Assembly (NCBI RefSeq): GCF_016595675.1
Contig: NZ_JAENJH010000012.1
Coordinates: 124,001 to 188,000, forward strand
DNA: 64,000 bases
Direction: 5' to 3'
Source of the DNA: Prauserella cavernicola
GTDB lineage: Bacteria > Actinomycetota > Actinomycetes > Mycobacteriales > Pseudonocardiaceae
Shown here: in pieces, positions 3,459-35,600 of the stretch
Layout of the letters: each line of letters opens with the position of its first letter
How positions within the stretch are numbered: position 1 is the stretch's first letter
Notes under the pieces: generated by a model
Told to the model about the DNA's origin: nothing
Databases searched by the model: none
Seen by the model: the letters and a program-made list of their open reading frames with translations, nothing else
Translations under genes and position numbers: made by a program

Positions 3459-4337
3459 TCAGGCCGTCCACGACCGCCACTCGGCCAGCAGGATCTCCAG
3501 CAGCCCGCCCGGGTTCTCGGTGTTCGGGGAGTGCGCCGCGCGCTCGACCACGGCGAACGGCACGTCCAGGCGCCGCGCCATGTCCTTCTGCGTGGCCACG
3601 CTCCAGGCGTCGTCGTTCTCGCCGGTCACGACCACTCCGGGCACCTGCCGTGCGCGCAGAGCGTCGGCGAGTTCGTCGACCCGGTCGGGCTCCGACCGCA
3701 GGCCGGTGGCCATGCCCAGCAGACAGGCCGCGTTCGAGCGGACGAAGCGGGCGCGCAGGAACGCCTTCAGATCCTGCGGCATGGCTCTCCAGCCGGGCGC
3801 CCGAGAGCTGACCTGCTCGCGCACCACGTAGGCGGCCTCGATGCCCTCCTCGCGCAGCAGCGGCTCGCCCACGTCGAGCGCGCTGAGGCGGGCGCCCCGC
3901 GGCAGCCTGCCGGGCCCGCTGTCCAGCAGCGTCAACCCCGCGATCGGGGCGCCTGCCAGCACCGCGCCCCTGGCGACCAGCCCGCCGTAGGAGTGTCCGA
4001 GCAGCAGCACGGGGCCGCCGTTCGCGGCCAGTGACCCGGCCAGCTCCGCCACCGCCTCGCCGAGCGCGAGGGGCAGGTACAGCGCCTCGTCACCGGGACC
4101 GGGCGACTCGTTCTGGCCGGGCAGGTCGATCGCGACCGGGTGGATGCCGCCCTCGGCGAACCCGTCGAGCAGGGGAGCGAAGTCCTCTTTGGAGCCCGTG
4201 TAGCCGGGTAGCAGCAGCGCGGTCGCCAGCGGTTTCGCCGGCACCGGACCGGACAGCGCGGCGACCGGGCCGTACCGCCCCGTCAGGGTCGTCGTGGCGG
4301 CGCCGTGCGGTGAAAGCTGGGAGAACACGGTGGTCAT
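3459..4337 (-). CDS. alpha/beta hydrolase
   Basis: A 292-residue alpha/beta-hydrolase-fold protein. The nucleophile elbow is GHSYGG with S116, an oxyanion-type LLPGYTGSKED strand lies near residue 42, and a probable catalytic histidine is in RAAHSPNTENP near the C terminus. The substrate is unknown; the family includes esterases, lipases and haloperoxidase-like enzymes. Its ATG overlaps the stop of the upstream propeller protein (ATGA at 4334-4337), so helicase, propeller protein and hydrolase form one minus-strand operon. Confidence 0.88.
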   Translation of the reverse strand: MTTVFSQLSPHGAATTTLTGRYGPVAALSGPVPAKPLATALLLPGYTGSKEDFAPLLDGFAEGGIHPVAIDLPGQNESPGPGDEALYLPLALGEAVAELAGSLAANGGPVLLLGHSYGGLVARGAVLAGAPIAGLTLLDSGPGRLPRGARLSALDVGEPLLREEGIEAAYVVREQVSSRAPGWRAMPQDLKAFLRARFVRSNAACLLGMATGLRSEPDRVDELADALRARQVPGVVVTGENDDAWSVATQKDMARRLDVPFAVVERAAHSPNTENPGGLLEILLAEWRSWTA

Positions 4338-5728
4338 CGCAGTGCCACCACGGTGCCGCCCCGCTGCTCCAGCAGCACGGGGCCCGCGGCGGCGAGCTCG
4401 ACCTCGCCGCGATGTCCGTCGCGCTCGACGCCGACCGTGCGCTCGACGGCGCCGGTGCCCTCGTCCACCACGGCGAGCCCGCCCTCGATCGGCACCACGT
4501 ACTGCCCCGCGAACTGCGTGCCGGGGCCGCGTGTGCCGTCCATGGTCCACTGCGGTGTGAGGTCCTTGCGCGAGAGCGCGACCGTCGTGGAGCCGGTGAA
4601 CCAGTAGATGTTGTCGACGCCCGTGGCGATGGGCAGCACACCGTGCTCCGCCTTGCGCTGGAGATCGGCCGTCGGCACGTCCAGCGGGTAGGCGGCCTCC
4701 TGCTTGCCGTCGGAGCCGTAGAGCGCCAGCTGTCCCCGGTCGGGGAACAGGACGGCCGCGGTGTCGCCCGCCATGGCGACGAGCCGGGCCGAGCGTTCGG
4801 GCAGCACCACCGAGTACTCCTCTTCGGGTTCGTCGGCCTCCTCGCCCGCGGACTTCAGCACGGTCAGCCTGGCCGCGCGATCGCCGGGGCAGTCCTCGAT
4901 CACGCCGACGTCGCCGGAACCGGCCGCGACGGTGCCGTAGGTGCACCCCGTTCGCGGCTGCTTGTCGGGGTTGACCAGCGCGTAGACCTCGCCGTACTCG
5001 AGGCTCTTCACCAGGTCGTTGCGCCACGTGTTGAGCACGTGCTCGCCGGTGGCGGTGACGTGCCCGCCGTCGCTGACGAGCCGCGTGCCGAGCTCGGCGT
5101 CGCCGTTGCGCTGGGCGGTGCGCCGTCCGGTGCCGGGATCGAGCTGGGTGACCTCGCTGCAGCCGGTGTCCTTGCGATACACGGCGAGCGCCTTGCTCCA
5201 GCCGCTCGCGACGGTGCACAGCTCGAGGTCGCGGGTGTAGTTCCAGCGCACCTCACCGGTCAGCGGGTCGCGGCCCGCGACCTCGCCGCCTGAGCCGGTG
5301 ACGACGGTGGATCCCTCGCTGACCGGGACCGGGGTGGCTTCGCTCTGCGCCCGCCAGCTCTCCCGCAGCGAGTCGGGGACCGACGCGGGAGCCGAGGGCA
5401 GCGCGGGCGGCTCGTCGGCCAGTTCGTGACTCGTGGCCCGCTGGTCGCTGAACACCCACACCAGCAGGCTCGCCGTGAGCGCGACGACCGCGATCAGCGC
5501 TGCCGCCACGCGGTCGCGGCGGCGATTCCACGGAGAAGGCCTGCCGGGCGGGGCCGCCGAGTGGCGGGACCCGCCCGCAGGCCTGTCCGTGTCGTCGTTG
5601 TCGTCGTGCCCCTCGTGCTGCGCCGCCGGGGCGAGCACGTCCTCCGAGCCGGTCGCGTGCACGGGCGTTCCCGTGTCGTCGGGTTCGCCGTCGTCGCGCT
5701 TGCGATGCCGCCCGGAGGAGGAGTTCAC
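4334..5728 (-). CDS. membrane-anchored PQQ-like beta-propeller protein
   Basis: A 464-residue protein with an acidic, low-complexity cytoplasmic N terminus (1-70), one membrane segment (about 73-93) and a long extracytoplasmic part made of repeated strands such as GEVAGRDPLTGEVRW, typical of PQQ-like quinoprotein propellers. It probably acts as an outer-surface scaffold; no cofactor residues can be claimed. It starts at GTG 5728, with GAGGGC upstream, four bases after the helicase stop. An equivalent gene next to rhlE (Rv3212 beside Rv3211) is recalled for M. tuberculosis. Its stop overlaps the start of the downstream hydrolase. Confidence 0.72.
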   Translation of the reverse strand: MNSSSGRHRKRDDGEPDDTGTPVHATGSEDVLAPAAQHEGHDDNDDTDRPAGGSRHSAAPPGRPSPWNRRRDRVAAALIAVVALTASLLVWVFSDQRATSHELADEPPALPSAPASVPDSLRESWRAQSEATPVPVSEGSTVVTGSGGEVAGRDPLTGEVRWNYTRDLELCTVASGWSKALAVYRKDTGCSEVTQLDPGTGRRTAQRNGDAELGTRLVSDGGHVTATGEHVLNTWRNDLVKSLEYGEVYALVNPDKQPRTGCTYGTVAAGSGDVGVIEDCPGDRAARLTVLKSAGEEADEPEEEYSVVLPERSARLVAMAGDTAAVLFPDRGQLALYGSDGKQEAAYPLDVPTADLQRKAEHGVLPIATGVDNIYWFTGSTTVALSRKDLTPQWTMDGTRGPGTQFAGQYVVPIEGGLAVVDEGTGAVERTVGVERDGHRGEVELAAAGPVLLEQRGGTVVALR

Positions 5729-5732
5729 GTGC

Positions 5733-7355
5733 TCAGTCTGCCCTCGCCGGTGTCTCGGCCGTGTTGGCGGGCGCCCCGGCGCGGCGCCTGCGGCGACGGC
5801 GTGCGGGACGCTCGCCCGCCTCGCCGGAGCCTGCCTCGGTCTTCTCACCCGTCGAGGGAGCCTCGCCCGCGGGCTTGGCACCGCCGCGCGTGCGACGGCG
5901 CGAGCGGCTCCGGCCGCCTTCCGACGGCGAGTCCGAGTTCGAGGCGTTCTCGCCCTCGGCGGGAGCCGAGCCGTCGAGGTCCTGGCCGCCCCGGGTGCGG
6001 CGGCGCGGCTTGGAGCGCCGCGCCGACGACCCCGACGACCCCGAAGAACCGCCGGAACCACCCGAGGAGCGACCGTTGCGGCGCTTGCCGCCCAGGTTCT
6101 CCTCCGGCTCCGCGCCGAGTCCAGCGCGGGTGCGCTTGGCCAGCGGGAGCCTGCCCGACGCGTCCTCGGGGATGTCGAGGTCGGAGAACAGGTGCTTCGA
6201 GGTGGAGTAGGTCTCCACCGGCTCCGGCATCTCGAGCTTCAGCTCGTCGGAGATGAGCTTCCAGCGCGGGATCTCGTCCCAGTCGACGAGCGTGATCGCG
6301 ACACCGGTCTTGCCCGCCCGGCCGGTGCGGCCGATGCGGTGGACGTAGGTCTTCTCGTCCTCCGGCGTCTGGTAGTTGACCACGTGCGTGACGTCGTCGA
6401 CGTCGATGCCGCGCGCGGCGACGTCGGTGGCCACCAGCACGTCGACCTTGCCGGTGCGGAACGCGCGCAGCGCCTGCTCGCGGGCGCCCTGGCCGAGGTC
6501 ACCGTGCACCGCGGCGGCGGCGAACCCGCGCTCGGCGAGGTCGTCGGCCACCTTCTGGGCCGTGCGCTTGGTGCGCGCGAAGACCATGGTCAGGCCGCGC
6601 TCCTTGGCCTGGAGCACCTTGGCGACCAGTTCGGGCTTGTCCAGCGAGTGCGCCCGGTAGGCGAACTGGGTGGTGCGCTCGTGCACCGCGCCCGCGTCGT
6701 TCTCCTCGGCGCGGATGTGGGTGGGCTGGTCGAGGAACGTCCTGGCCAGCGTGATGATCGGTCCGGGCATGGTCGCCGAGAACAGCATCGTCTGCCGCTT
6801 CTCGGGCACCATCCGCAGGATCCGCTCGATGTCGGGCAGGAAGCCGAGGTCGAGCATCTCGTCGGCCTCGTCGAGCACGAGGGACTGCACCTTGCCGAGC
6901 ACGAGGTGGCGCTGCTCGGCGAGGTCGAGCAGCCGGCCGGGGGTGCCGACGACCACGTCGACGCCCTTGCGCAGCGCCGCGATCTGCGGCTCGTAGGGAC
7001 GGCCGCCGTAGATGGACGCGATGCGGATGCCGAGATCCTTGCTCGCGTCGGTCAGGTCGTGGGTGACCTGCAGGCACAGCTCGCGGGTCGGGACCACGAC
7101 CAGCGCCTGCGGGGTGCCGTCACCGGGAATCGTGAGCCGCTGCAGCAGCGGCACACCGAAACCGAGGGTCTTGCCCATGCCGGTGCGGGCCTGGCCGATG
7201 AGGTCGTCTCCCGCCAGCGCGAGCGGCAGCGTCAGCGCCTGGATCGCGAAGGTCCGCTCGATGCCGGCCTTCTGGAGGGCCGACACGATCTCGGGGCGGA
7301 CGCCGAACTCGGCGAACGTCGGGGACTCGGCCTCGACGGGCGCGCCCGCCTGCAA
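5733..7355 (-). CDS. rhlE: DEAD-box ATP-dependent RNA helicase
   Basis: A DEAD-box helicase of at least 540 residues. The motifs run in order: Q motif AIQALTLP (about 37), motif I ARTGMGKT (56-63), VPTREL, DEADEM, SAT, and the C-terminal HRIGRTGRAG. A tail of about 150 residues rich in Arg, Gly, Ser and Glu is typical of RNA-binding extensions. It unwinds structured RNA and may act in ribosome assembly or RNA turnover. The listed start is a TTG at 7355 with no ribosome binding site. The frame stays open to a stop at 7458-7460 without ATG, GTG or another TTG, so the true start may be a rare codon such as the ATC at 7442, which GAGAGG precedes. It is first in the operon with the propeller protein and hydrolase. 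Confidence 0.9.
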   Translation of the reverse strand: MQAGAPVEAESPTFAEFGVRPEIVSALQKAGIERTFAIQALTLPLALAGDDLIGQARTGMGKTLGFGVPLLQRLTIPGDGTPQALVVVPTRELCLQVTHDLTDASKDLGIRIASIYGGRPYEPQIAALRKGVDVVVGTPGRLLDLAEQRHLVLGKVQSLVLDEADEMLDLGFLPDIERILRMVPEKRQTMLFSATMPGPIITLARTFLDQPTHIRAEENDAGAVHERTTQFAYRAHSLDKPELVAKVLQAKERGLTMVFARTKRTAQKVADDLAERGFAAAAVHGDLGQGAREQALRAFRTGKVDVLVATDVAARGIDVDDVTHVVNYQTPEDEKTYVHRIGRTGRAGKTGVAITLVDWDEIPRWKLISDELKLEMPEPVETYSTSKHLFSDLDIPEDASGRLPLAKRTRAGLGAEPEENLGGKRRNGRSSGGSGGSSGSSGSSARRSKPRRRTRGGQDLDGSAPAEGENASNSDSPSEGGRSRSRRRTRGGAKPAGEAPSTGEKTEAGSGEAGERPARRRRRRRAGAPANTAETPARAD

Positions 7356-24773: not shown

Positions 24774-25123
24774 CCGCGATGGCGGAGCAGACGTGGGTGG
24801 CGGTGTGTGCGGCCGAGGCCGTGCCGAGGGCGTCCGGGGTCGCGGCGCTGCTCGACGACGGCACGCAGGTGGCGATCTTCCGCACCGAGGACGACCGCTT
24901 CCACGGTCTGTCCAACGTGGACCCGTTCAGCGGGGCGGCCGTGCTCTCGCGCGGGATCGTCGGCGACGCCGGGGGAGTGCCCGTGGTGGCCTCACCGGTG
25001 TACAAACAGCGGTTCGACCTGAGCACCGGGCGCTGCCTCGACGCGGACACCGGGGACACCGTGTGCGTGGCGACGTACCCGGTGCGGGTGATCGACGGCG
25101 TCGTGCACGTGGGCTCGTCGTGA
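24770..25123 (+). CDS. nirD: nitrite reductase (NADH) small subunit NirD
   Basis: A 117-residue Rieske-fold protein that partners NirB. As in most NirD proteins, the Rieske CxH ligand pairs are absent, so it holds no cluster and probably plays a structural role. The conserved VYKQRFDLSTGRCLD segment is present near residues 80-94. It is coupled to nirB by an ATGA overlap and to the next gene by a GTGA overlap, so nirB, nirD, hemD and the chelatase are likely one transcript. Confidence 0.92.
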   Translation: MTAMAEQTWVAVCAAEAVPRASGVAALLDDGTQVAIFRTEDDRFHGLSNVDPFSGAAVLSRGIVGDAGGVPVVASPVYKQRFDLSTGRCLDADTGDTVCVATYPVRVIDGVVHVGSS

Positions 25124-26238
25124 CCGAGCCGATGCCGCTCGCGGGCTTCGCGGTGGGCATCACCGCGGCCAGGCGGGCGGACGAGCTCGGCGCGCTGCTG
25201 GTGCGCAAGGGCGCGACCGTGCGCTACGGCCCCGCGATCCGCATCGTGCCGCTCGCCGACGACACCGAACTGCACGCCGCCACGAGACTGCTGCTCGAAC
25301 ACCCCGTCGACGCGGTGGTGGCCACCACCGGCATCGGCTTCCGCGGCTGGGTCGAGGCCGCCGAGGGCTGGGGACTCGGCGAGGCACTGCTGGACCGGCT
25401 TGCCGCGACGCAGGTACTCACGCGCGGGCCGAAGGCGAAGGGAGCGGTGCGCGCGGCGGGACTGTCGGAGGCGTACTCGCCAGCCTCGGAGAGCAACGCG
25501 GAACTGCTGCAGCACCTGCTCGACTCCGGTGTGGACGGTCAGCGGATCGCGGTGCAGCTGCACGGGGAACCGCTGCCGTACTTCGTCGACTCGCTGCGCT
25601 CGGCAGGCGCCGAGGTGGTGGAGATCCCGGTGTACCGCTGGGTCGGGCCCACCGACCCCGGCCCGCTCGACCGGTTGATCGACGCCGTGCTGGACGGCTC
25701 GATCGACGCGCTGCCGTTCACCAGTGCGCCCGCGGTCGCCAGCACGCTCGCGATGGCGAAGCGCACCGGCAGGCAGGCCGCGCTGGTCGAAGCGCTCGGG
25801 CACCGCGTACTCGTGGCGTGCGTCGGCCCGATCACCGCGGGCCCGCTCGCTGCGCTGGGCGTTCCCACGGTGCAGCCGCAGCGGGCCCGCATCGGCGCAC
25901 TCACGCGCACCGTGGCCGAGGGACTGATCGCGCGGTCGCCCCGGCTGTGCGCGGCGGGCAGGCAGATCGAGCTGCGCGGTCAGGCCGCCGTCGTGGACGG
26001 CGAACTGTGCGAGGTGGCGCCCGCCCCGATGGCGGTGCTGCGCGCGCTCGCGCGGCAGCCTGGCCGGGTGGTGTCGCGGCGTGAACTCACGGCGGCGCTG
26101 CCGAGTGGTGGGGAGGAGCACGCGGTGGAGACGGCGATCGGGAGGCTGCGGACGTCGCTCGGTGAAGGCAGGCTCGTGCAGACGGTGGTCAAGCGCGGCT
26201 ACCGGCTCGCCGTCGTCGCCGAGGAGGAACTCGCGTGA
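25120..26238 (+). CDS. hemD: uroporphyrinogen-III synthase fused to winged-helix DNA-binding domain
   Basis: A 372-residue two-domain protein. Residues 1 to about 265 are a HemD-type domain with the TTGIGFRGW, RGPKAKGA and VACVGPITAGPLAALG motifs; this enzyme cyclises hydroxymethylbilane to uroporphyrinogen III, the sirohaem precursor. Residues about 275-365 form an OmpR/PhoB-type winged helix (LCEVAPAPMAVLRALARQP, SRRELTAAL, VETAIGRLR, VKRGYRLAV). The same fusion is recalled for Rv0260c, also beside a chelatase and a narK gene. It may sense tetrapyrrole intermediates and regulate the cluster; that is inference. The start is GTG 25120, overlapping nirD. Confidence 0.9.
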   Translation: MTEPMPLAGFAVGITAARRADELGALLVRKGATVRYGPAIRIVPLADDTELHAATRLLLEHPVDAVVATTGIGFRGWVEAAEGWGLGEALLDRLAATQVLTRGPKAKGAVRAAGLSEAYSPASESNAELLQHLLDSGVDGQRIAVQLHGEPLPYFVDSLRSAGAEVVEIPVYRWVGPTDPGPLDRLIDAVLDGSIDALPFTSAPAVASTLAMAKRTGRQAALVEALGHRVLVACVGPITAGPLAALGVPTVQPQRARIGALTRTVAEGLIARSPRLCAAGRQIELRGQAAVVDGELCEVAPAPMAVLRALARQPGRVVSRRELTAALPSGGEEHAVETAIGRLRTSLGEGRLVQTVVKRGYRLAVVAEEELA

Positions 26239-28760: not shown

Positions 28761-29726
28761 ATGCGCGCGAGCAGGTTGTTGTCGGTGCTGCTGTTGTTGC
28801 AGAACCGGGGCCGGATGACGGCCGACGAACTGGCGAGCGAGCTGGAGGTCTCGGTGCGCACCGTGTACCGCGACATCGACGCCCTCACCGAGGCCGGCGT
28901 GCCCGTGTACGCCGACCGCGGCCGGGCGGGTGGTTACCAGCTCGTCGGCGGATACCGGACGCGGCTGACCGGCCTGAGTGAAGAGGAGGCGCGCTCGCTG
29001 GCGCTGGCCGGGCTGCCCGTGGCGGCGGCCGAGCTGGGGCTGGGCACCGTGCTGGCAGCGGCGCAGCTGAAGCTCTACGCCGCGCTGCCCGAGGAGTTGC
29101 GCGCCAGGGCCGGGCAGGTCGCGGAGCGGTTCTACCTCGACGTTCCCGGCTGGCACCGTGGCATCGAACGACTCGACCGGCTGGCCGAGGTGGCCGACGC
29201 GGTGTGGCGCTCACGGCGGCTCAGGGTGCGCTACCGGCGGTGGGACGACAGCCCCGTCGACCGTGTGCTCGAACCGCTCGGGCTCGTGCTGAAGGCGGGC
29301 AACTGGTACCTGGCGGCGCGGTGTGAGGGCAGCGAACGGACCTACCGCGTCTCCCGGATCGACGAGCTCACGGACGACGGAGAGTTCGCCCGTCCCGACG
29401 GTTTCGACCTGGCCGAGTACTGGCGGCAGTGGTCGGAACGCTTCGAACGCAGGCTGTTCGCCGCGGTCGCGCTGGTGCGGCTTTCGCCGCTGGGCAGGGA
29501 CCTCGTACCGTTCTACCTCGGAGCCGTCGGAGCGCGGGCGCTGCGCGAGAGCGGCGGCGAACCGGGCGAGGACGGGTGGTCGCGAGCGGAGCTGCCGGTG
29601 GAACCGGGGCCGCCCGCGCTCGGTCAGCTCCTGCACTTCGGGCCGCACCTCGAGGTGCTCGAGCCCGCCGAGCTCCGGGACCAGATGGCCGAAGCGGTAG
29701 CGAGGATGGGTGCGCTCTATGGGTGA
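28761..29726 (+). CDS. WYL-domain helix-turn-helix regulator (YafY type)
   Basis: A 321-residue transcription factor. The N-terminal winged helix (about 1-60) includes RMTADELASELEVSVRTVYRDIDAL. The central WYL domain follows, with VLEPLGLVLKAGNWYLAARCEGSERTYRVSRI around 170-205, and a C-terminal WCX-type segment completes it. WYL domains bind nucleotides or nucleic acids and control activity. It probably regulates itself and the divergent DUF3224/AlkZ-like operon. Its last eight bases overlap the start of the second hemD, which suggests co-translation. Confidence 0.9.
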   Translation: MRASRLLSVLLLLQNRGRMTADELASELEVSVRTVYRDIDALTEAGVPVYADRGRAGGYQLVGGYRTRLTGLSEEEARSLALAGLPVAAAELGLGTVLAAAQLKLYAALPEELRARAGQVAERFYLDVPGWHRGIERLDRLAEVADAVWRSRRLRVRYRRWDDSPVDRVLEPLGLVLKAGNWYLAARCEGSERTYRVSRIDELTDDGEFARPDGFDLAEYWRQWSERFERRLFAAVALVRLSPLGRDLVPFYLGAVGARALRESGGEPGEDGWSRAELPVEPGPPALGQLLHFGPHLEVLEPAELRDQMAEAVARMGALYG

Positions 29727-30525
29727 TCTCGGCGGAGTCACCATCGGTATCACCGCCGAGCGGCGCGCGGAGGAGTTCATCGGCGCGCTCGAACGGCACG
29801 GCGCCACGGTGTGGCACGCCCCGACGATCCGGATCGTGCCGCTCTCCGGCGACGAGCGGCTGCGCTCCGCGACCGAAGTTGTGGTGGCCGACGGCGTCGA
29901 CCTCGCGGCGGTGACGACGGGCGCAGGGTTCCGGGGCTGGTTCGACGCTGCGGAGGAATGGGGCCTCGCGGAACGGCTGCACGACACGCTGGCGGCGGCG
30001 CGGCTCTACGTCCGAGGGCCGAAGGCCAAGGGCGCCGTGCGGGGCAGGGGACTGACCGAGCGGTGGTCGGCGCCGGAGGAGAGCAACCGCGAGCTGTTCG
30101 AGCACGTGCTGGACCAGGGCGTGCGCGGGTCGCGGGTCGCGGTGCAGCTGCACGGCCAGCCGCTGCCGGAGTTCACGGACCGGCTGCGCGCGGCCGGGGC
30201 GGAGGTCGTCGAACTGCAGCCGTATCGCTGGCAGTGGCCCGCCGATCTCGAGCCCGCGTACCGGCTGCTCGACGGGGTGCTCGCGGGTGAGGTCGACGCG
30301 CTGGCGTTCACGAGCGCCCCGGCGACGGCGAACCTGCTCACGCTCGCGCGCGAACGGGGTGTGCACGCCGAGTTCGTGGCGAAGCTGGGTGCGGATGTGG
30401 TGTGCGCCTGCGTCGGTCCCGTGACGGCGGCGCCCCTGACGGAGCTGGGCATCCCGACGCGGCAACCCGACCGCCAACGCCTGGGCGCCCTGGTGAAACT
30501 CCTGGCGGCAGACCTGAGCGCGTAG
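29719..30525 (+). CDS. hemD: second uroporphyrinogen-III synthase, single-domain
   Basis: A 268-residue HemD-type protein clearly paralogous to the fused copy at 25120: both share TIRIVPL/AIRIVPL strands, GFRGWFDAAEEWGL, RGPKAKGAVR, VAVQLHGQPLP and CVGPVTAAPLTELG. It lacks the C-terminal DNA-binding domain. It should convert hydroxymethylbilane to uroporphyrinogen III. ATG 29719 overlaps the WYL regulator stop (29724-29726). It may be a diverged duplicate with a distinct role; which copy serves general haem synthesis cannot be told here. A long tandem-repeat zone starts about 20 bases after its stop. Confidence 0.85.
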   Translation: MGDLGGVTIGITAERRAEEFIGALERHGATVWHAPTIRIVPLSGDERLRSATEVVVADGVDLAAVTTGAGFRGWFDAAEEWGLAERLHDTLAAARLYVRGPKAKGAVRGRGLTERWSAPEESNRELFEHVLDQGVRGSRVAVQLHGQPLPEFTDRLRAAGAEVVELQPYRWQWPADLEPAYRLLDGVLAGEVDALAFTSAPATANLLTLARERGVHAEFVAKLGADVVCACVGPVTAAPLTELGIPTRQPDRQRLGALVKLLAADLSA

Positions 30526-30545
30526 CCCCACGGCAAGCCCGAGCC

Positions 30546-30935
30546 GCGAGTCCCCCGCTGGGGTGCGCGAGTTGCCCGCCCGGGTGCGTGAGTTGCCCGC
30601 TGGGGGCGTGAGTTGCGCGTTCGGGTGCCTGAGTTGCCCGCTGGGGGCGTGAGTGGCTCGCTCGGGTGCCTGAGTTGCCCGCTGGGGGCGTGAGTGGCTC
30701 GCTCGGGTGCCTGAGTTGCCCGCTGGGGGCGTGAGTGGCTCGCTCGGGTGCCTGAGTTGCCCGCTGGGGGCGTGAGTTGCTCGCTCGGGTGCGTGAGTTG
30801 CCCGCTGGGGGCGTGAGTGGCTCGCTCGGGGCGCGCCGGTCGTGTGGTGCGGGCCGCTAGTCCTGCACTCCGGGGCGCGAGCCGTGCGCTCTCGAACGCG
30901 AGTTGCGCGCTCAGGGCCGCGAGTTGTGCGGTGCG
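30546..30935 (+). repeat. tandem array, 41-bp unit of two ~20-21 bp halves
   Basis: The motif GAGTTGCCCGCTGGGGGC recurs at 30590, 30631, 30672, 30713, 30754 and 30795, exactly 41 bases apart. Within each unit a second GAG (30610, 30651, 30692, 30733, 30774, 30815) starts a half-unit, giving alternating 21- and 20-base steps. Degenerate units extend it back to 30548 and 30569 and on to 30879, 30900 and 30921. The array starts about 20 bases after the hemD stop and reads in hemD's direction. It is not coding and has no CRISPR-like unique spacers. Confidence 0.92.
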
Positions 30936-31119
30936 GTTCCGGAACGGGGCGCCGGTGCAGTGCCCGTTCGATGCCCGGCTCGGAGCGGGCGGCTCGAACC
31001 GAAGGTTCGGGATCGGGATTCGCAAGCTGCGCGAGAATTCGCGCCCGGACCAGCCCGGAGCAGCCCGGAGCAGATGGCTCACCGAACGGGGAGTGGCCTC
31101 GAGTGCCGAGCGGGGCCGC
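30936..31119. other. spacer between the two opposed arrays
   Basis: About 180 GC-rich bases without a credible gene. Traces of the ~21-base motif may persist at its left edge, but the centre (about 31000-31090) looks non-repetitive. No promoter, RNA gene or terminator was recognised. Confidence 0.45.
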
Positions 31120-31385
31120 CGCGGACTTGGGCGGGGAACTCGCGCTCAGGAATGGGACTCGCGTGCGTTGGCGGTGAACACGCGGTCCCGGGTTAGGGAC
31201 TCGCATGCCGGAGTGGGGGACTCGCGGACCGGGGCGGGCAACTCGCGTGCCCGGGCGGGGTCGTGTGCCGGAACGGGCAACTCGCAGTCCCGGACGGGCA
31301 ACTCGCGAACCGGGGCGGGGGACTCGCGTGCCTGGGCGGGCATCTCGCGTGCCCCGGCGGGGGACTCGCGGACCCGGGCGCGGGC
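31120..31385 (-). repeat. tandem array, ~21-bp unit, opposite orientation
   Basis: ACTCGCG-type motifs recur with the C near 31139, 31158, 31200, 31221, 31243, 31281, 31302, 31323, 31344 and 31365, mostly 21 bases apart. Read on the minus strand the unit is CGCGAGTTGCCCG, the same core as the left array. So this array follows the minus-strand SIP gene in its own direction of transcription, starting 13 bases after its stop. It is more degenerate than the left array. Confidence 0.88.
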
Positions 31386-31397
31386 GGCGCGGGTTGG

Positions 31398-32252
31398 TTA
31401 CGCCTCCGCCTCCGGCGGCGGTTCTCCCTTGTCGAGTTGGCGCAGGTTCTCCCTGCCCGTGTCCTCTTCGCTGCGGCCGATGCGCCAGTAGCCCGTGAAG
31501 GTGATCGCGCGCTTGTCGACGCCCCGTTCGCGAACCAGGTGCCTGCGCGCGAATTTCACCATTCCCGCCTCGCCCGAGACCCACGCGTACGGTCGTCCGG
31601 TGGGCAGGCGCGCGCTGCGCACGGCGTCCAGCACGGGCTGGCCGTGCGGGGAGCCGCCGCGGCTGATCCAGTGGATCTCGACGTCGGCGGCGGTGGCGAA
31701 ATCTTGCCGGTCGTCCGGGTCGTCGACCTCGATGAACACCCGCGCCGACGACTCGGAGGGCAGCGTCTCCAGGATCGCGCCGATCGCGGGCACGGCCGTC
31801 TCGTCACCGACCAGCAGCTGCCACGACGTGCCCTCGGGCACCGCGTACAGCCCGTGCGGCCCGAGCAGCGCCACCTCGCTGCCCACCGTCGCGAGCCCGG
31901 CCCACGCCGACGCCGGGCCGCTGTCGCCGTGCAGCACGAAGTCGATGTCGATCTCGAGGTCGTCGGGGCGGTGCGCCCGCACGGTGTAGGTGCGCATCGG
32001 CGGACGATCGTCGTCCGGCATCGCGAGGTAGGTGCGGTACCAGGACATGACGTCGGAACTCGCCGCGGGCGGCAGCTGTGGCCGGTCCTGGCCCGGCCGC
32101 GGGAAGAACACCTTGACGTACTGGTCCGGCGCCGCGCTGACGAAGTCGTGGAGGTCTCCGGTGAAGGTGATCCGGGCCATGTGGGGCGTGAGCCGCCTGA
32201 CCGCGGTCACCTGGAGCGCTCGGTAGGTCAGCTGAGGCGAGGCCGTCGTCAT
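31398..32252 (-). CDS. siderophore-interacting protein (FAD-dependent ferric reductase)
   Basis: A 284-residue SIP/ViuB-family flavoprotein. The FAD-binding barrel (about 1-130) has the RTYTVRAHRP motif. The NAD(P)H domain (about 140-275) has LLVGDETAVPAIGAILE and YAWVSGEAGMVKFARR. It releases iron from ferric siderophores in the cytoplasm by reducing Fe(III). An IdeR/DtxR box overlaps the start codon, so iron should repress it. It lies nine bases after an alkyltransferase-like gene on the same strand and converges on the hemD copy across the repeat zone. No siderophore genes are in the window. Confidence 0.92.
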   Translation of the reverse strand: MTTASPQLTYRALQVTAVRRLTPHMARITFTGDLHDFVSAAPDQYVKVFFPRPGQDRPQLPPAASSDVMSWYRTYLAMPDDDRPPMRTYTVRAHRPDDLEIDIDFVLHGDSGPASAWAGLATVGSEVALLGPHGLYAVPEGTSWQLLVGDETAVPAIGAILETLPSESSARVFIEVDDPDDRQDFATAADVEIHWISRGGSPHGQPVLDAVRSARLPTGRPYAWVSGEAGMVKFARRHLVRERGVDKRAITFTGYWRIGRSEEDTGRENLRQLDKGEPPPEAEA

Positions 32253-32270
32253 TAGGCGAGGCTAACCTAC
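32252..32270 (-). promoter_or_regulatory. IdeR/DtxR iron box
   Basis: TTAGGCGAGGCTAACCTAC matches the 19-base IdeR/DtxR consensus TTAGGTTAGGCTAACCTAA at 16 of 19 positions, with a well-preserved right half. It shares one base with the SIP start codon and overlaps the last codons of the upstream alkyltransferase-like gene (stop at 32262-32264). Iron-loaded IdeR bound here would block SIP expression. Confidence 0.8.
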
Positions 32271-32558
32271 TGGATTGCGCCAGCGATACCGCCTGAGATC
32301 GATCCGCTGTCCGTCGGCCAGCACGCCCTCCGCGCGCAGCAGTTCGAGTTGCCGGTGCACCAGATGCGGCGCGGGAGTTCCGTTCGCGCGCAGCACGCGG
32401 TGCCACGGCACGTCCTGTCCGTCCTCGGAGAGGATCCGCCCGATCAGCCGGGGCGTGCTCGCGTCCGCGGCCGCGGCCACGTCGCCGTAGGTCGCGACCG
32501 AGCCCGGCGGGATCGACGCGACGATGTCGCGCACACGCTCGTGCAGCTCCTCGTCCAT
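32262..32558 (-). CDS. alkyltransferase-like protein (MGMT family, no acceptor Cys)
   Basis: A 98-residue MGMT-type DNA-binding domain. The active-site motif PCHRV of O6-alkylguanine transferases is replaced by PWHRV, so the alkyl-accepting cysteine is missing. This is the mark of alkyltransferase-like (ATL) proteins, which bind O6-alkylguanine and signal to nucleotide excision repair. The GSVATYGDVA and GRILSEDG segments fit the family. Start alternatives are ATG 32558 and GTG 32567. It lies beside adnAB (repair genes), as Rv3204 does in M. tuberculosis (recalled). Its 3' end contains part of the SIP iron box. Confidence 0.87.
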   Translation of the reverse strand: MDEELHERVRDIVASIPPGSVATYGDVAAAADASTPRLIGRILSEDGQDVPWHRVLRANGTPAPHLVHRQLELLRAEGVLADGQRIDLRRYRWRNPVG

Positions 32559-32646
32559 GCCGTCCACTCTAGGCAGATGCCCTGGTCAACTGTGATCCAC
32601 CGTGGCGCTGTGCGGTTTCGTCGGTACGTCGTGGTTCCATCAGATC

Positions 32647-35600
32647 GTGAGCAGGAGTGGACTGAACGCGAGGCTGGTGCGCTCGCAGGCTCAGCCCCCT
32701 CGCGCGCACGTGTGGGCGGGGGACGCGGCCGCGTTGCTCGGCGCACCCGGCGGCTTCCGGCGCGTGCTCGGCGGACCAGGCACGGGCAAGACCACGCTGC
32801 TGTCGTCGATCGCCGCCGCGCGCGTGCGCGAGGGAGCCGATCCGGAGAGCCTGCTCGTGCTCACCTCGTCGCGCCGCGCGGCCGACGCCGTCCGCGCCGA
32901 CATCACGCGCAGGCTCACCGCCGACGGCGAACACAGTGGCCGCACCATTCGCGAGCCGTTGGTGCGCACGGTGCACTCGTACGCGTTCGCGGTGCTGCGC
33001 CTGCAGGCCGGGCTCAACGACCTGCCCGCGCCCCGGCTGCTGTCGGGCCCGGAGCAGGACGTCGTGGTGCGCGAACTCCTCGCCGGTGATCTCGAGCAGG
33101 GTGCGCCGGACTGGCCGGAGACACTGAGGCCCGCGCTGCTCGTCCCTGGCTTCGCGGAGGAGCTGCGCGATCTGCTGCTGCGCGCGGCCGAACGCGGCCT
33201 CGGGCCCGAGGACCTGATCAAGCTCGGCAAGCAGCAGCAGCGCGAGCAGTGGGTCGCCGCGGGCCGGTTCTGGCGGCAGTACGAGGAGGTCACCCTTCTG
33301 CTCGGCTCGGGAGGCAACGCGCTGGGGCAACCCGGAGCACCCGCGCTCGACGCCGCCGAGCTCGTGTCCAGCGCGCTCGTGGAGCTGGAAGGCGATCCCG
33401 ACCTGCTCGCGCGCGAGCAGCGGCGCATCCGGCACCTGCTCGTCGACGACGCCCAGCACCTCGACCCGCTGCAGTTCCGGCTCGTGCACCTGCTCGGCGG
33501 TGCCGCCGACGACTTCGTGGTGGCCGGCGATCCCGACCAGTCCGTGTTCTCCTTCCGTGGCGCCGATCCCGGCCAGCTCACGGAACTGGACGACGATGGC
33601 GACCGCACGATCACGCTCACCCGCAGCCACCGGATGACCGAGGCCGTGCACGCCGCGGTCACCCGCGTGGCCGCGAACCTGCCCGGCGCCCGCCCGCACC
33701 GCGCGCTCGAACCCGCGAGCGACGACGAGGGCGTGGTGCGCGCCAAACTCCTGCCCACGCCCGCCGCGGAGGCCAGCTGGGTCGCCGACCAGCTGCGGCG
33801 CGCGCACCTGCTCGACGAGGTGCCGTGGTCGGAGATGGCGGTGATCGTGCGCTCGCCGTCGCGGTCGTTTCCCGTGCTGCAGCGCGCTCTCGGCGCCGCG
33901 GGCGTGCCGATCGCGTCGGCGACGGAGGAGCTGCCGCTGGCCCGCCAGTCGGGCGTGCGCCCGCTGCTGGCCGTGCTGCGCCTGTCGACTGAGCCGGAGG
34001 CGCTCGACGTCGACCTCGCCGAGATGCTGCTGTCGTCGCCGCTGGGTGGGGCCGACCCACTCGCGCTGCGCAGGCTGCGCCGGGGACTGCGGAGGCTGGA
34101 GCTGGCCTCGGGCGGCGAACGCTCCAGCGACGAGCTGCTCGTGGAAGCCTTGCGGGACAACGACATGCTCACCGGGCTCGCCGACGCCGAGGCCGCGCCG
34201 GTGCGCCGGGTCGGTGGGCTGCTCGCCACGGCGCGCGACTGCGTCGGCAGGGGCCTCGGCGTCGAGGACGTGCTGTGGCAGGTGTGGCAGACCAGCAAGC
34301 TCGAGAACCGGCTGCTGCGGCAGGTCGCGCGGGGTGGCTCGCTCGCCGCGCAGGCCGACCGCGACCTGGACGCTGTGGTGGCGCTGTTCCACGCCGCGGG
34401 TCGTTATGTCGACAGGTTGCCCAAGGCGAGTGTCGCCGGGTTCGCCGAGTACCTCACCTCGCAGCACATCGCGGGCGACAGCCTCGCGCCCACCGCCGCG
34501 CGCGGCAAGGGCGTCTCGCTGCTGACGGCCCACGGCGCCGCCGGCCGGGAGTGGACGGTCGCGGCCGTGGTCGGCGCGCAGGAGGGCAGCTGGCCGGACC
34601 TGCGGCTGCGGGGCACACTGCTGGGCGTCGAACGGCTCGTCGACCTGCTGTCCGGAGTGGACGGTGTGCACCTGTCCGCGACGGCGCCGCTGCTGGCCGA
34701 AGAGCGCAGGCTGTTCTACGTCGCTGCCAGCAGAGCCAGCCGGATGCTGCTGGTCAGCGCCGTGCAGGGCGAGGACGAGCAGCCGTCACGCTTCGTCGCC
34801 GAGTTGCTCGACGACGGGGGCGACGACGCGGGCCCCGACGTTCGCCGCTACACCCGCGAGCGTTCGCTGGTGCTCTCCGAGCTGGTGGGCGAACTGCGCT
34901 CCGTGGCGTGCGACTCCGGCGCCGAGCCGCGCCGGAGGGAGGTGGCCGTGCGGCAGCTCTCGCGGCTCGCCCGCGCGGGAGTGCCCGGCGCGCACCCCGA
35001 CCAGTGGTACGGACTGCCGGACGCCAGCACCTCGGCGCCGTTGCGCGCGGCCGACGCGCTCATCCGCGTCTCTCCATCCACTGTGGACATTCTGGCGAAG
35101 TGCCCCCTGCGCTGGCTGCTCGAACGCCACGGCGGCAGTGATCCCGCCCAGCTCGCGGCGGTCACGGGCACGCTCGTGCACGCGCTCGCGCAGGCGGCCG
35201 CGAGCGGGGCCGACGACGAGCAGCTCAAGGCGGAGCTGGACTCGGCGTGGGCGAAGGTCGACGCGGGTGCGCCGTGGTTCTCCCGGCGCGAGCGGCGCAG
35301 GGTCGAGCAGATGGTGGACAACTTCCTGGCGTGGCTGCGCAACAGCAGGGGCGAGCTGACCCAGCTGGCCGTGGAGCGGGACATGGAGGTGGAGCTGCCC
35401 GCCGCGGCCGACGAACTGCGGGTCAAGCTCGCGGGCCGGGTCGACCGGCTGGAGCTCGACAATCAGGGCAGGCCGGTGATCGTCGACGTCAAGACCAGCA
35501 AGACGCCGGTGAGCGCCGCCGACGCCGAGAAGCATCCGCAGCTCGCGGCCTACCAGCTGGCGCTGCTGCTGGGCGCGTTCGCCGAGCACGGCGAGCAGAC

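Follow-up and report, generated by a model that had tools for sequence, protein, structure and literature searches.

Facing arrays of an ordered 21-bp unit at gene ends in Prauserella cavernicola: a candidate bidirectional 3'-end element

The window, that is, the whole 64,000-nucleotide stretch of Prauserella cavernicola DNA analysed here, carries between two convergent genes what appears to be one copy of a dispersed inverted-repeat element found at gene ends. Its two arms, which face inward, each consist of 21-bp units repeated in tandem in a set order, and many arms begin a few bases past a stop codon. RNA copied through the element would fold arm on arm; the long hairpin so formed would lack a U-tract and could stop RNA polymerase and/or fix the RNA 3' end from both sides. 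Judging from sequence comparisons, we consider it moderately probable that the element functions as a bidirectional 3'-end, terminator-type hairpin whose arms have expanded into arrays. It would then be an expanded member of a hairpin family that occurs elsewhere in the bacterial family, where a 42-bp form has a single 21-nt arm per side and the elements of another genus have about two units in each arm.

Analyses with TRF and a weight matrix recovered opposed repeat arrays in the gap at 30526-31397, which lies between two converging stop codons. The features of the locus are as follows.

29719 to 30525, plus strand: HemD-family uroporphyrinogen-III synthase gene (PF02602, Pfam), upstream of the left arm.
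30545 to 30936, plus strand: left arm, 18 units of about 21 bp (weight matrix), reading away from the HemD-family gene.
30554 to 30830, plus strand: 41-bp (20+21) higher-order repeat within the left arm (TRF, 6.7 copies, 94% matches).
30561 to 30805: overlapping 21-bp row in the left arm (TRF).
30937 to 31125, no strand: inter-arm spacer.
31043 to 31073: 10-bp tandem repeat of 3.1 copies inside the spacer.
31126 to 31370, minus strand: right arm, 9 units above threshold (weight matrix), reading away from the siderophore-interacting-protein gene.
31154 to 31384: right-arm 21-bp row of 11.1 copies (TRF).
31398 to 32252, minus strand: siderophore-interacting protein/FAD_binding_9 gene (PF04954, PF08021, Pfam), upstream of the right arm.

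The sequence-only reading had described six units exactly 41 bases apart with a 21/20 sub-period. Both TRF and the GAG starts at 30590, 30631, 30672, 30713, 30754 and 30795, spaced by exactly 41 bp with 20/21 sub-steps, agree with this description. It had also proposed that a single motif is shared by two opposed directional arrays, which was borne out by the core GAGTTGCCCG common to both and by the plus- and minus-strand units of the weight matrix; the arrays do read inward from the adjoining stop codons (plus-strand gene ending at 30525, minus-strand gene at 31398). The first unit of the left arm is of the GAGTC type and later ones are mostly GAGTT or GAGTG. The 41-bp form is absent from the orthologous gaps of the nearest named relatives, Prauserella flavalba (L009) and P. 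endophytica (L010). A search of 29000-33000 with Rfam 15 gave three weak matches, none above the gathering score. Two genes resembling HemD-family uroporphyrinogen-III synthases lie about 3.5 kb apart in the window, at 25120-26238 (judged by eye from its translation) and 29719-30525 (by Pfam).

To place this locus in the genome (G000; 7.2 Mb, 90 contigs), the window gap was used as a BLAST query, which gave at least 152 matches. In all, the genome has no fewer than 45 such loci, the window locus among them. We then read 1.22 Mb, comprising the window, 40 x 20 kb of systematically sampled sequence and loci picked from BLAST or pattern matches, and found 89 arrays with 595 units in 45 of 78 sequences and in 50 gaps. 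When the 864 kb formed by the window and the sample (L033-L072) were Markov-shuffled, the weight matrix detected no array in any of four rounds, versus 16-17 in the real sequence. Among the matches listed, contigs C11, C33 and C22 show long array-empty blocks (for example C11 beyond 640 kb).

The genome-wide unit is GCGAGTnnnnCRYTCnnGnnc, 21 bp long. Although the step search admitted 19-22 bp, direct steps were exactly 21 bp in 442 of 463 cases in G000 (the left arm of the window aside), in 54/55 and 124/125 cases in two same-genus genomes (G001 and G002, respectively), and in 247 of 253 cases over twelve further genomes, one from the same genus and eleven from others. Neighbour distances in G000, listed openly up to 130 bp, gave the same single main peak at 21. 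The period of 20.5 bases that had been proposed from the sequence therefore holds locally, as the 20/21 alternation of the window locus, but not genome-wide, where it is 21. A coding role was considered and rejected, the conserved columns (1-6, 11-15 and 18) having no codon periodicity by eye. There is strong coupling between columns 9 and 10 (G000, G001, G002) and between columns 7 and 8 (G000, G002), which occur as CC/TG/CG words, a pattern that CpG decay or the copying of discrete unit types might produce.

The intergenic and mostly gene-end placement suggested by the window locus held across the genome, and the refuting condition set by the sequence-only reading, units inside unrelated genes, was not borne out. 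According to the codon-based gene caller made for this analysis, the array midpoint fell within a called gene for none of the 89 arrays in G000, and for 0/15 and 1/27 arrays in the two same-genus genomes. Leaving aside that one array inside a called gene, 94 of the 122 outermost arrays of the three genomes lie behind a gene that reads in the same direction, starting a median of 7.5 nt after its stop codon (77/94 within 30 nt). The other 28 face a gene 5' end 18-494 nt away, and 24 of these have an opposite array at most 1.3 kb off. In convergent gaps either orientation satisfies the 3'-end condition, so the evidence for orientation lies in the pairs: 51 pairs were inward and none outward in the three species, with 8 same-direction neighbours. 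Single-arm loci occur, and arms also pair up in tandem gaps. Convergent gaps accounted for 28 of the 50 array gaps, most of which were chosen for holding arrays, versus 136 of 769 sample gaps (P = 1.3e-9); in the sample alone, array gaps were convergent in 4 cases, tandem in 3 and divergent in 1. Of the arrays in the twelve further genomes, 46 could be scored, 38 of them lying on a gene 3' side, and 7 more fell in called genes. A script counted 11 inward and 6 outward pairs there, palindromic flavours blurring the strand calls. One of the array-rich genomes outside the genus (G224, genus g67) shows, by eye, 2 outward pairs alongside 6 or more inward ones, so the inward rule is not absolute. 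These outward pairs lie on contig C1 at about 138675-138819 (L207) and 836053-836176, and the arms of L207 mirror each other unit by unit, by eye. A link to expression level was also tried and dropped: genes next to arrays did not differ from others in codon score (P = 0.14) and had only slightly higher GC3 (0.933 vs 0.922, P = 0.03; 54 vs 1025 genes).

Units within an arm are ordered. We counted from the outer end in arms of at least four units and scored a C after GAGT. In G000 this C was present in 142/150 of units 1-2 versus 52/133 of units 4-5 (P = 1.1e-25), and the same order was seen in G001 (28/28 versus 8/22) and G002 (47/52 versus 16/46). Eleven further genomes gave 36/58 versus 11/40 when pooled (P = 0.001); taken singly, G224 reached P = 0.016 and G237, G022, G003, G012 and G070 were each non-significant. 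Arms beside gene 5' ends had an equal order (36/36 versus 13/34), which indicates that the polarity, with GAGTC outside and more GAGTT inside, belongs to the element and not to the neighbouring gene. The sequence-only reading had seen two directional 3' elements meeting. Its opposed gene-end arrays stand, but because the outer-to-inner order is the same beside 5' and 3' gene ends and arms pair in tandem gaps too, the better reading is a single inverted-repeat element with two arms. Arms, once merged, most often hold 4-5 units (82, 15 and 27 arms, with a minimum of 3 set by rule). When this rule was relaxed in the 864-kb sample, the sole two-unit array was a fragment of an arm of the window locus itself; lone hits scoring over 8 bits numbered 17 in gaps, some of them beside arrays, and 78 in genes.

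Of the functions first proposed for the window arrays, a role in ending transcription is the best supported; the replication and chromosome-organising roles, judged by location, found no support. The element has the inverted repeat, predicted to fold in the transcript, of an intrinsic terminator: each of the 34 arm pairs spanning up to 520 bp (49 pairs in all) has a folding energy below the average of its five Markov shuffles, and on average 66% of the left arm pairs with the right arm. No T-run was seen by eye at 31371-31397 on the plus strand or at 30544-30526 on the minus strand, so the U-rich tract is lacking at the window locus. Small RNA hairpins within each unit (GAGU with RYUC) were rejected as the main explanation. 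Among unique units, such pairing is possible in 58%, 87% and 82% on the sense strand versus 18%, 23% and 9% on the antisense, but independent columns already give 57%, 84% and 82%, and single arms (arrays up to 130 bp) fold hardly better than shuffles (mean z -0.3 to -1.0). A second within-unit hairpin, of positions 7-8 with 17-18, was not above independent columns.

Arm-on-arm folding is further favoured by genus g67. In 16 two-unit elements, arm identity was 0.900 within a locus versus 0.745 when arms were permuted between loci (5000 permutations, maximum 0.859), and the arms covary, with several pair types per column and C-G, A-T and G-C exchanging. In the own genus, an arm resembles its partner at the same locus no more than it resembles arms of other loci (permutation P 0.73, 0.84 and 0.98; mirrored or reversed register 0.60-0.99), so pairing there is at consensus level only. 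These uncoupled arms, together with the single-arm loci, the weak folding of single arms, the 28 arms at gene 5' ends, the outward pairs of G224 and the 13 of 17 relatives described below that have neither array nor hairpin at the window gap, count against the hairpin reading.

Of 120 family genomes, 17 have at least 30 matches per strand to hairpins of the form CGTGAGTG-N6-34-CACTCACG; G000-G003 have 0-1. Thirteen of the 17 have fewer than 30 matches to the looser array pattern described below, and one of the 17, G030, has a high control. Loci L221-L226 and L253-L256, from other genera, carry CGTGAGTG-N-CACTCACG hairpins that are mostly 42 bp where read. We compared the window gap in 17 relatives, 7 Nocardioides loci being left out. 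The orthologous gap holds 4 units in P. flavalba and 3 in P. endophytica, in a left arm only. In P. shujinwangii and Qaidamihabitans albus (L012 and L013), a CGTGAGTG-N26-CACTCACG hairpin (length by eye) stands at the end of the HemD orthologue, near 6800, its outer end overlapping the HemD stop codon; in P. shujinwangii an inserted gene pair follows it. Neither array nor such hairpin was present in the other 13 relatives, where several gaps are only 4-46 bp. P. muralis has no array at this gap. In P. rugosa (L014, about 6805-6946), a different short tandem repeat (GGCTGGGCAACCGGGC-like) fills the orthologous gap. The arrays share with the CGTGAGTG-N26-CACTCACG hairpins their niche, a GYGAGT-like outer motif, 21-nt arms and, in two relatives, the same gene end; the hairpins differ in having one 21-nt arm per side and no tandem array. 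From the g67 covariation and the 42-bp hairpins at the same gene end we infer a common hairpin function at gene ends. A common origin of arrays and 42-bp hairpins, and an action in transcription termination, are inferred as well. A second, very conserved element was also noticed, in which GTGAAGGGCACCTTTACTGC faces its own reverse complement (7 bp apart in two cases viewed). In the own-genome sample it is present in 19 of the 136 convergent gaps and in 6 of the 501 tandem ones, 52 of 53 hits being intergenic; it occurs also in the L091 gap at 4183-5118; it looks like another two-way terminator-type hairpin. Mutual exclusion between arrays and this second hairpin family was too weak to retain, 2 of the 50 array gaps holding that family.

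In eukaryotic rDNA, arrays of bound terminator proteins block RNA polymerase. By analogy, a putative protein might sit on each unit (GAGT-N5-RYTC, an imperfect dyad), always on one helix face, and the row of proteins would form a polar barrier to RNA polymerase. As in rDNA, there is a row of directional sites of about 20 bp downstream of genes; here, however, the host is a bacterium, the binding protein is putative and the arrays usually come as two facing ones. The near-invariant step over the three species and twelve further genomes, the conserved GCGAGT and RYTC blocks and the uncoupled arms of the own genus suit such a barrier, as do the mode of 4-5 units and the lack of two-unit loci in the sample, both of which cooperative binding might require. 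The period of 21 bp, though rigid and about equal to two turns of B-DNA, does not by itself show protein binding, as tandem duplication also preserves a period passively, and the covariation of the g67 arms favours structure. We regard the protein barrier, the main rival reading, as rather unlikely.

Rho could instead load on each arm as an untranslated C-rich stretch just past the stop codon. The sense strand of the arrays is C-rich in two of three genomes (C 0.42/G 0.33 in G000 and C 0.46/G 0.31 in G002, versus C 0.33/G 0.33 at 146 other G000 gene 3' ends), sense arms fold less than antisense ones in both, and four units amount to about 84 nt, which makes a role for Rho possible but weak. 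In G001, by contrast, the strand is little skewed (C 0.37, G 0.34) and sense folds slightly more than antisense, and 28 of 122 arms lie beside gene 5' ends. Rho does not require a fixed 21-nt period, a GAGT block or an order of units, which also speaks against it, and we think Rho loading very unlikely to be the explanation.

The comparison of loci between species bears on whether the arrays are selfish or neutral repeats. Of the 26 array gaps in G001 and G002, 17 have a flank in the G000 set and 14 have both. All 14 have arrays between or next to the matched flanks in G000, and the other 3 have arrays beside the single matched flank; the G000 set is enriched for array loci, although no more than about 5% of the genome was chosen on account of arrays. 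Units of orthologous gaps were no more alike between species (0.621 and 0.692) than those of other gaps (0.644 and 0.699; permutation P 0.49 with 6 orthologous pairs and 0.79 with 7). Positions are thus kept while locus-specific sequence is lost. Agreement between loci was 0.771 in G001 and 0.743 in G002, a sign of homogenisation in these genomes; within G000 it was 0.68, no higher than across species with G002. A species flavour is therefore clear in G001, weak in G002 and not demonstrated for G000.

A satellite-like or miniature mobile element, persisting solely in harmless places between convergent stop codons and outside promoters, would account for this loss of locus memory and for the flavour of G001. 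It would also fit the patchy occurrence within genera and the local expansion at the window (18+9 units versus 4+0 and 3+0 in the sister species). The RAYT-type transposase family (PF01797, Y1_Tnp) was matched in 5 of 30 genomes, three of them array-rich and outside the genus (G196, G224, G232) and two array-poor (G026, G132), but it gave no match in the four own-genus genomes G000-G003. Mobile carriage of the window element is likewise unsupported by blastn, which found no match in plasmids or phages. The positions shared between species, the array starts just a few bases past stop codons, the ordered units and the lack of two-unit intermediates in the sample also argue against a selfish or neutral repeat, which we consider quite unlikely.

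A plain hairpin does not account for the rigid period, for the unit order or for the lack of two-unit arms, all of which sit better with a unit-reading factor. The arms might thus form an ordered, 21-nt-phased code (GAGTC outside, GAGTT inside) read by a dedicated putative factor. Such a code could be rewritten at fixed loci by copying or by co-evolution with the factor, so that orthologous elements lose sequence memory while a species may gain its own flavour. We offer this proposal as a tentative and fairly unlikely one.

We further assessed the distribution of the arrays in related genomes. Among 60 genomes searched with a two-unit pattern, 53 had no match. Four own-genus genomes had 176, 237, 258 and 10 matches, two other genera had 9 and 36, and a third other genus had 1; the reversed pattern gave 1 match over all genomes searched. 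A looser pattern (three GAGT at 21-bp steps) had at least one match in 243 of 297 family genomes, mostly background. At least 30 matches were counted by hand for 36 genomes of 11 genera, usually far above the control (392 versus 87 in G232), and array-rich and array-poor species coexist within one genus by this pattern, as in genera g15, g24 and g26. When YTC was required in place, 6 of 10 rich genomes tested retained 68-290 matches, and the others kept 21/784 (G021), 15/264 (G196), 7/79 (G215) and 0/123 (G075). Richness by the looser pattern is therefore not due to the same unit everywhere. In these last four genomes GAGT recurs at 21-bp steps mostly without YTC, possibly as other unit types with an equal period.

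A word-matching search of an open-licence library found nothing recognisable as a published description of these arrays. Structured U-less 3' ends and bidirectional 3' ends have been reported in Streptomyces clavuligerus (PMC8269248). The hairpin proposed above, as predicted from DNA, resembles these U-less (I-shaped) or bidirectional 3' ends of GC-rich actinobacteria in being a two-way structure without a U-tract. It differs from them in that its arms are ordered 21-bp tandem arrays of up to 18 units whose sequence is common to dispersed loci. The arrays also recall REP/BIME elements (PMC3733652, PMC2817692): they are extragenic, present in many copies, mainly between convergent and same-direction genes, composite in arrangement and uneven among species. 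Unlike REP/BIME units, which alternate, the present ones run head-to-tail in each arm and carry a GCGAGT block in place of a GTAG or CGTC tag, and the own genus has no RAYT-type match. CGTC REPs are likewise reported to go without a dedicated transposase.

The ending of transcripts in high-GC actinobacteria, many of which are antibiotic producers, is incompletely known, and the element supplies, within one bacterial family, a class of putative two-way stop signals that is easy to search for. Its arms form a natural length series (one, two and 4-18 units), through which the effects of arm length, period and unit order are directly testable. Where dispersed short arrays keep their position between species and not their locus sequence, some explanation is needed, be it a reader, copying or rapid local turnover under selection.
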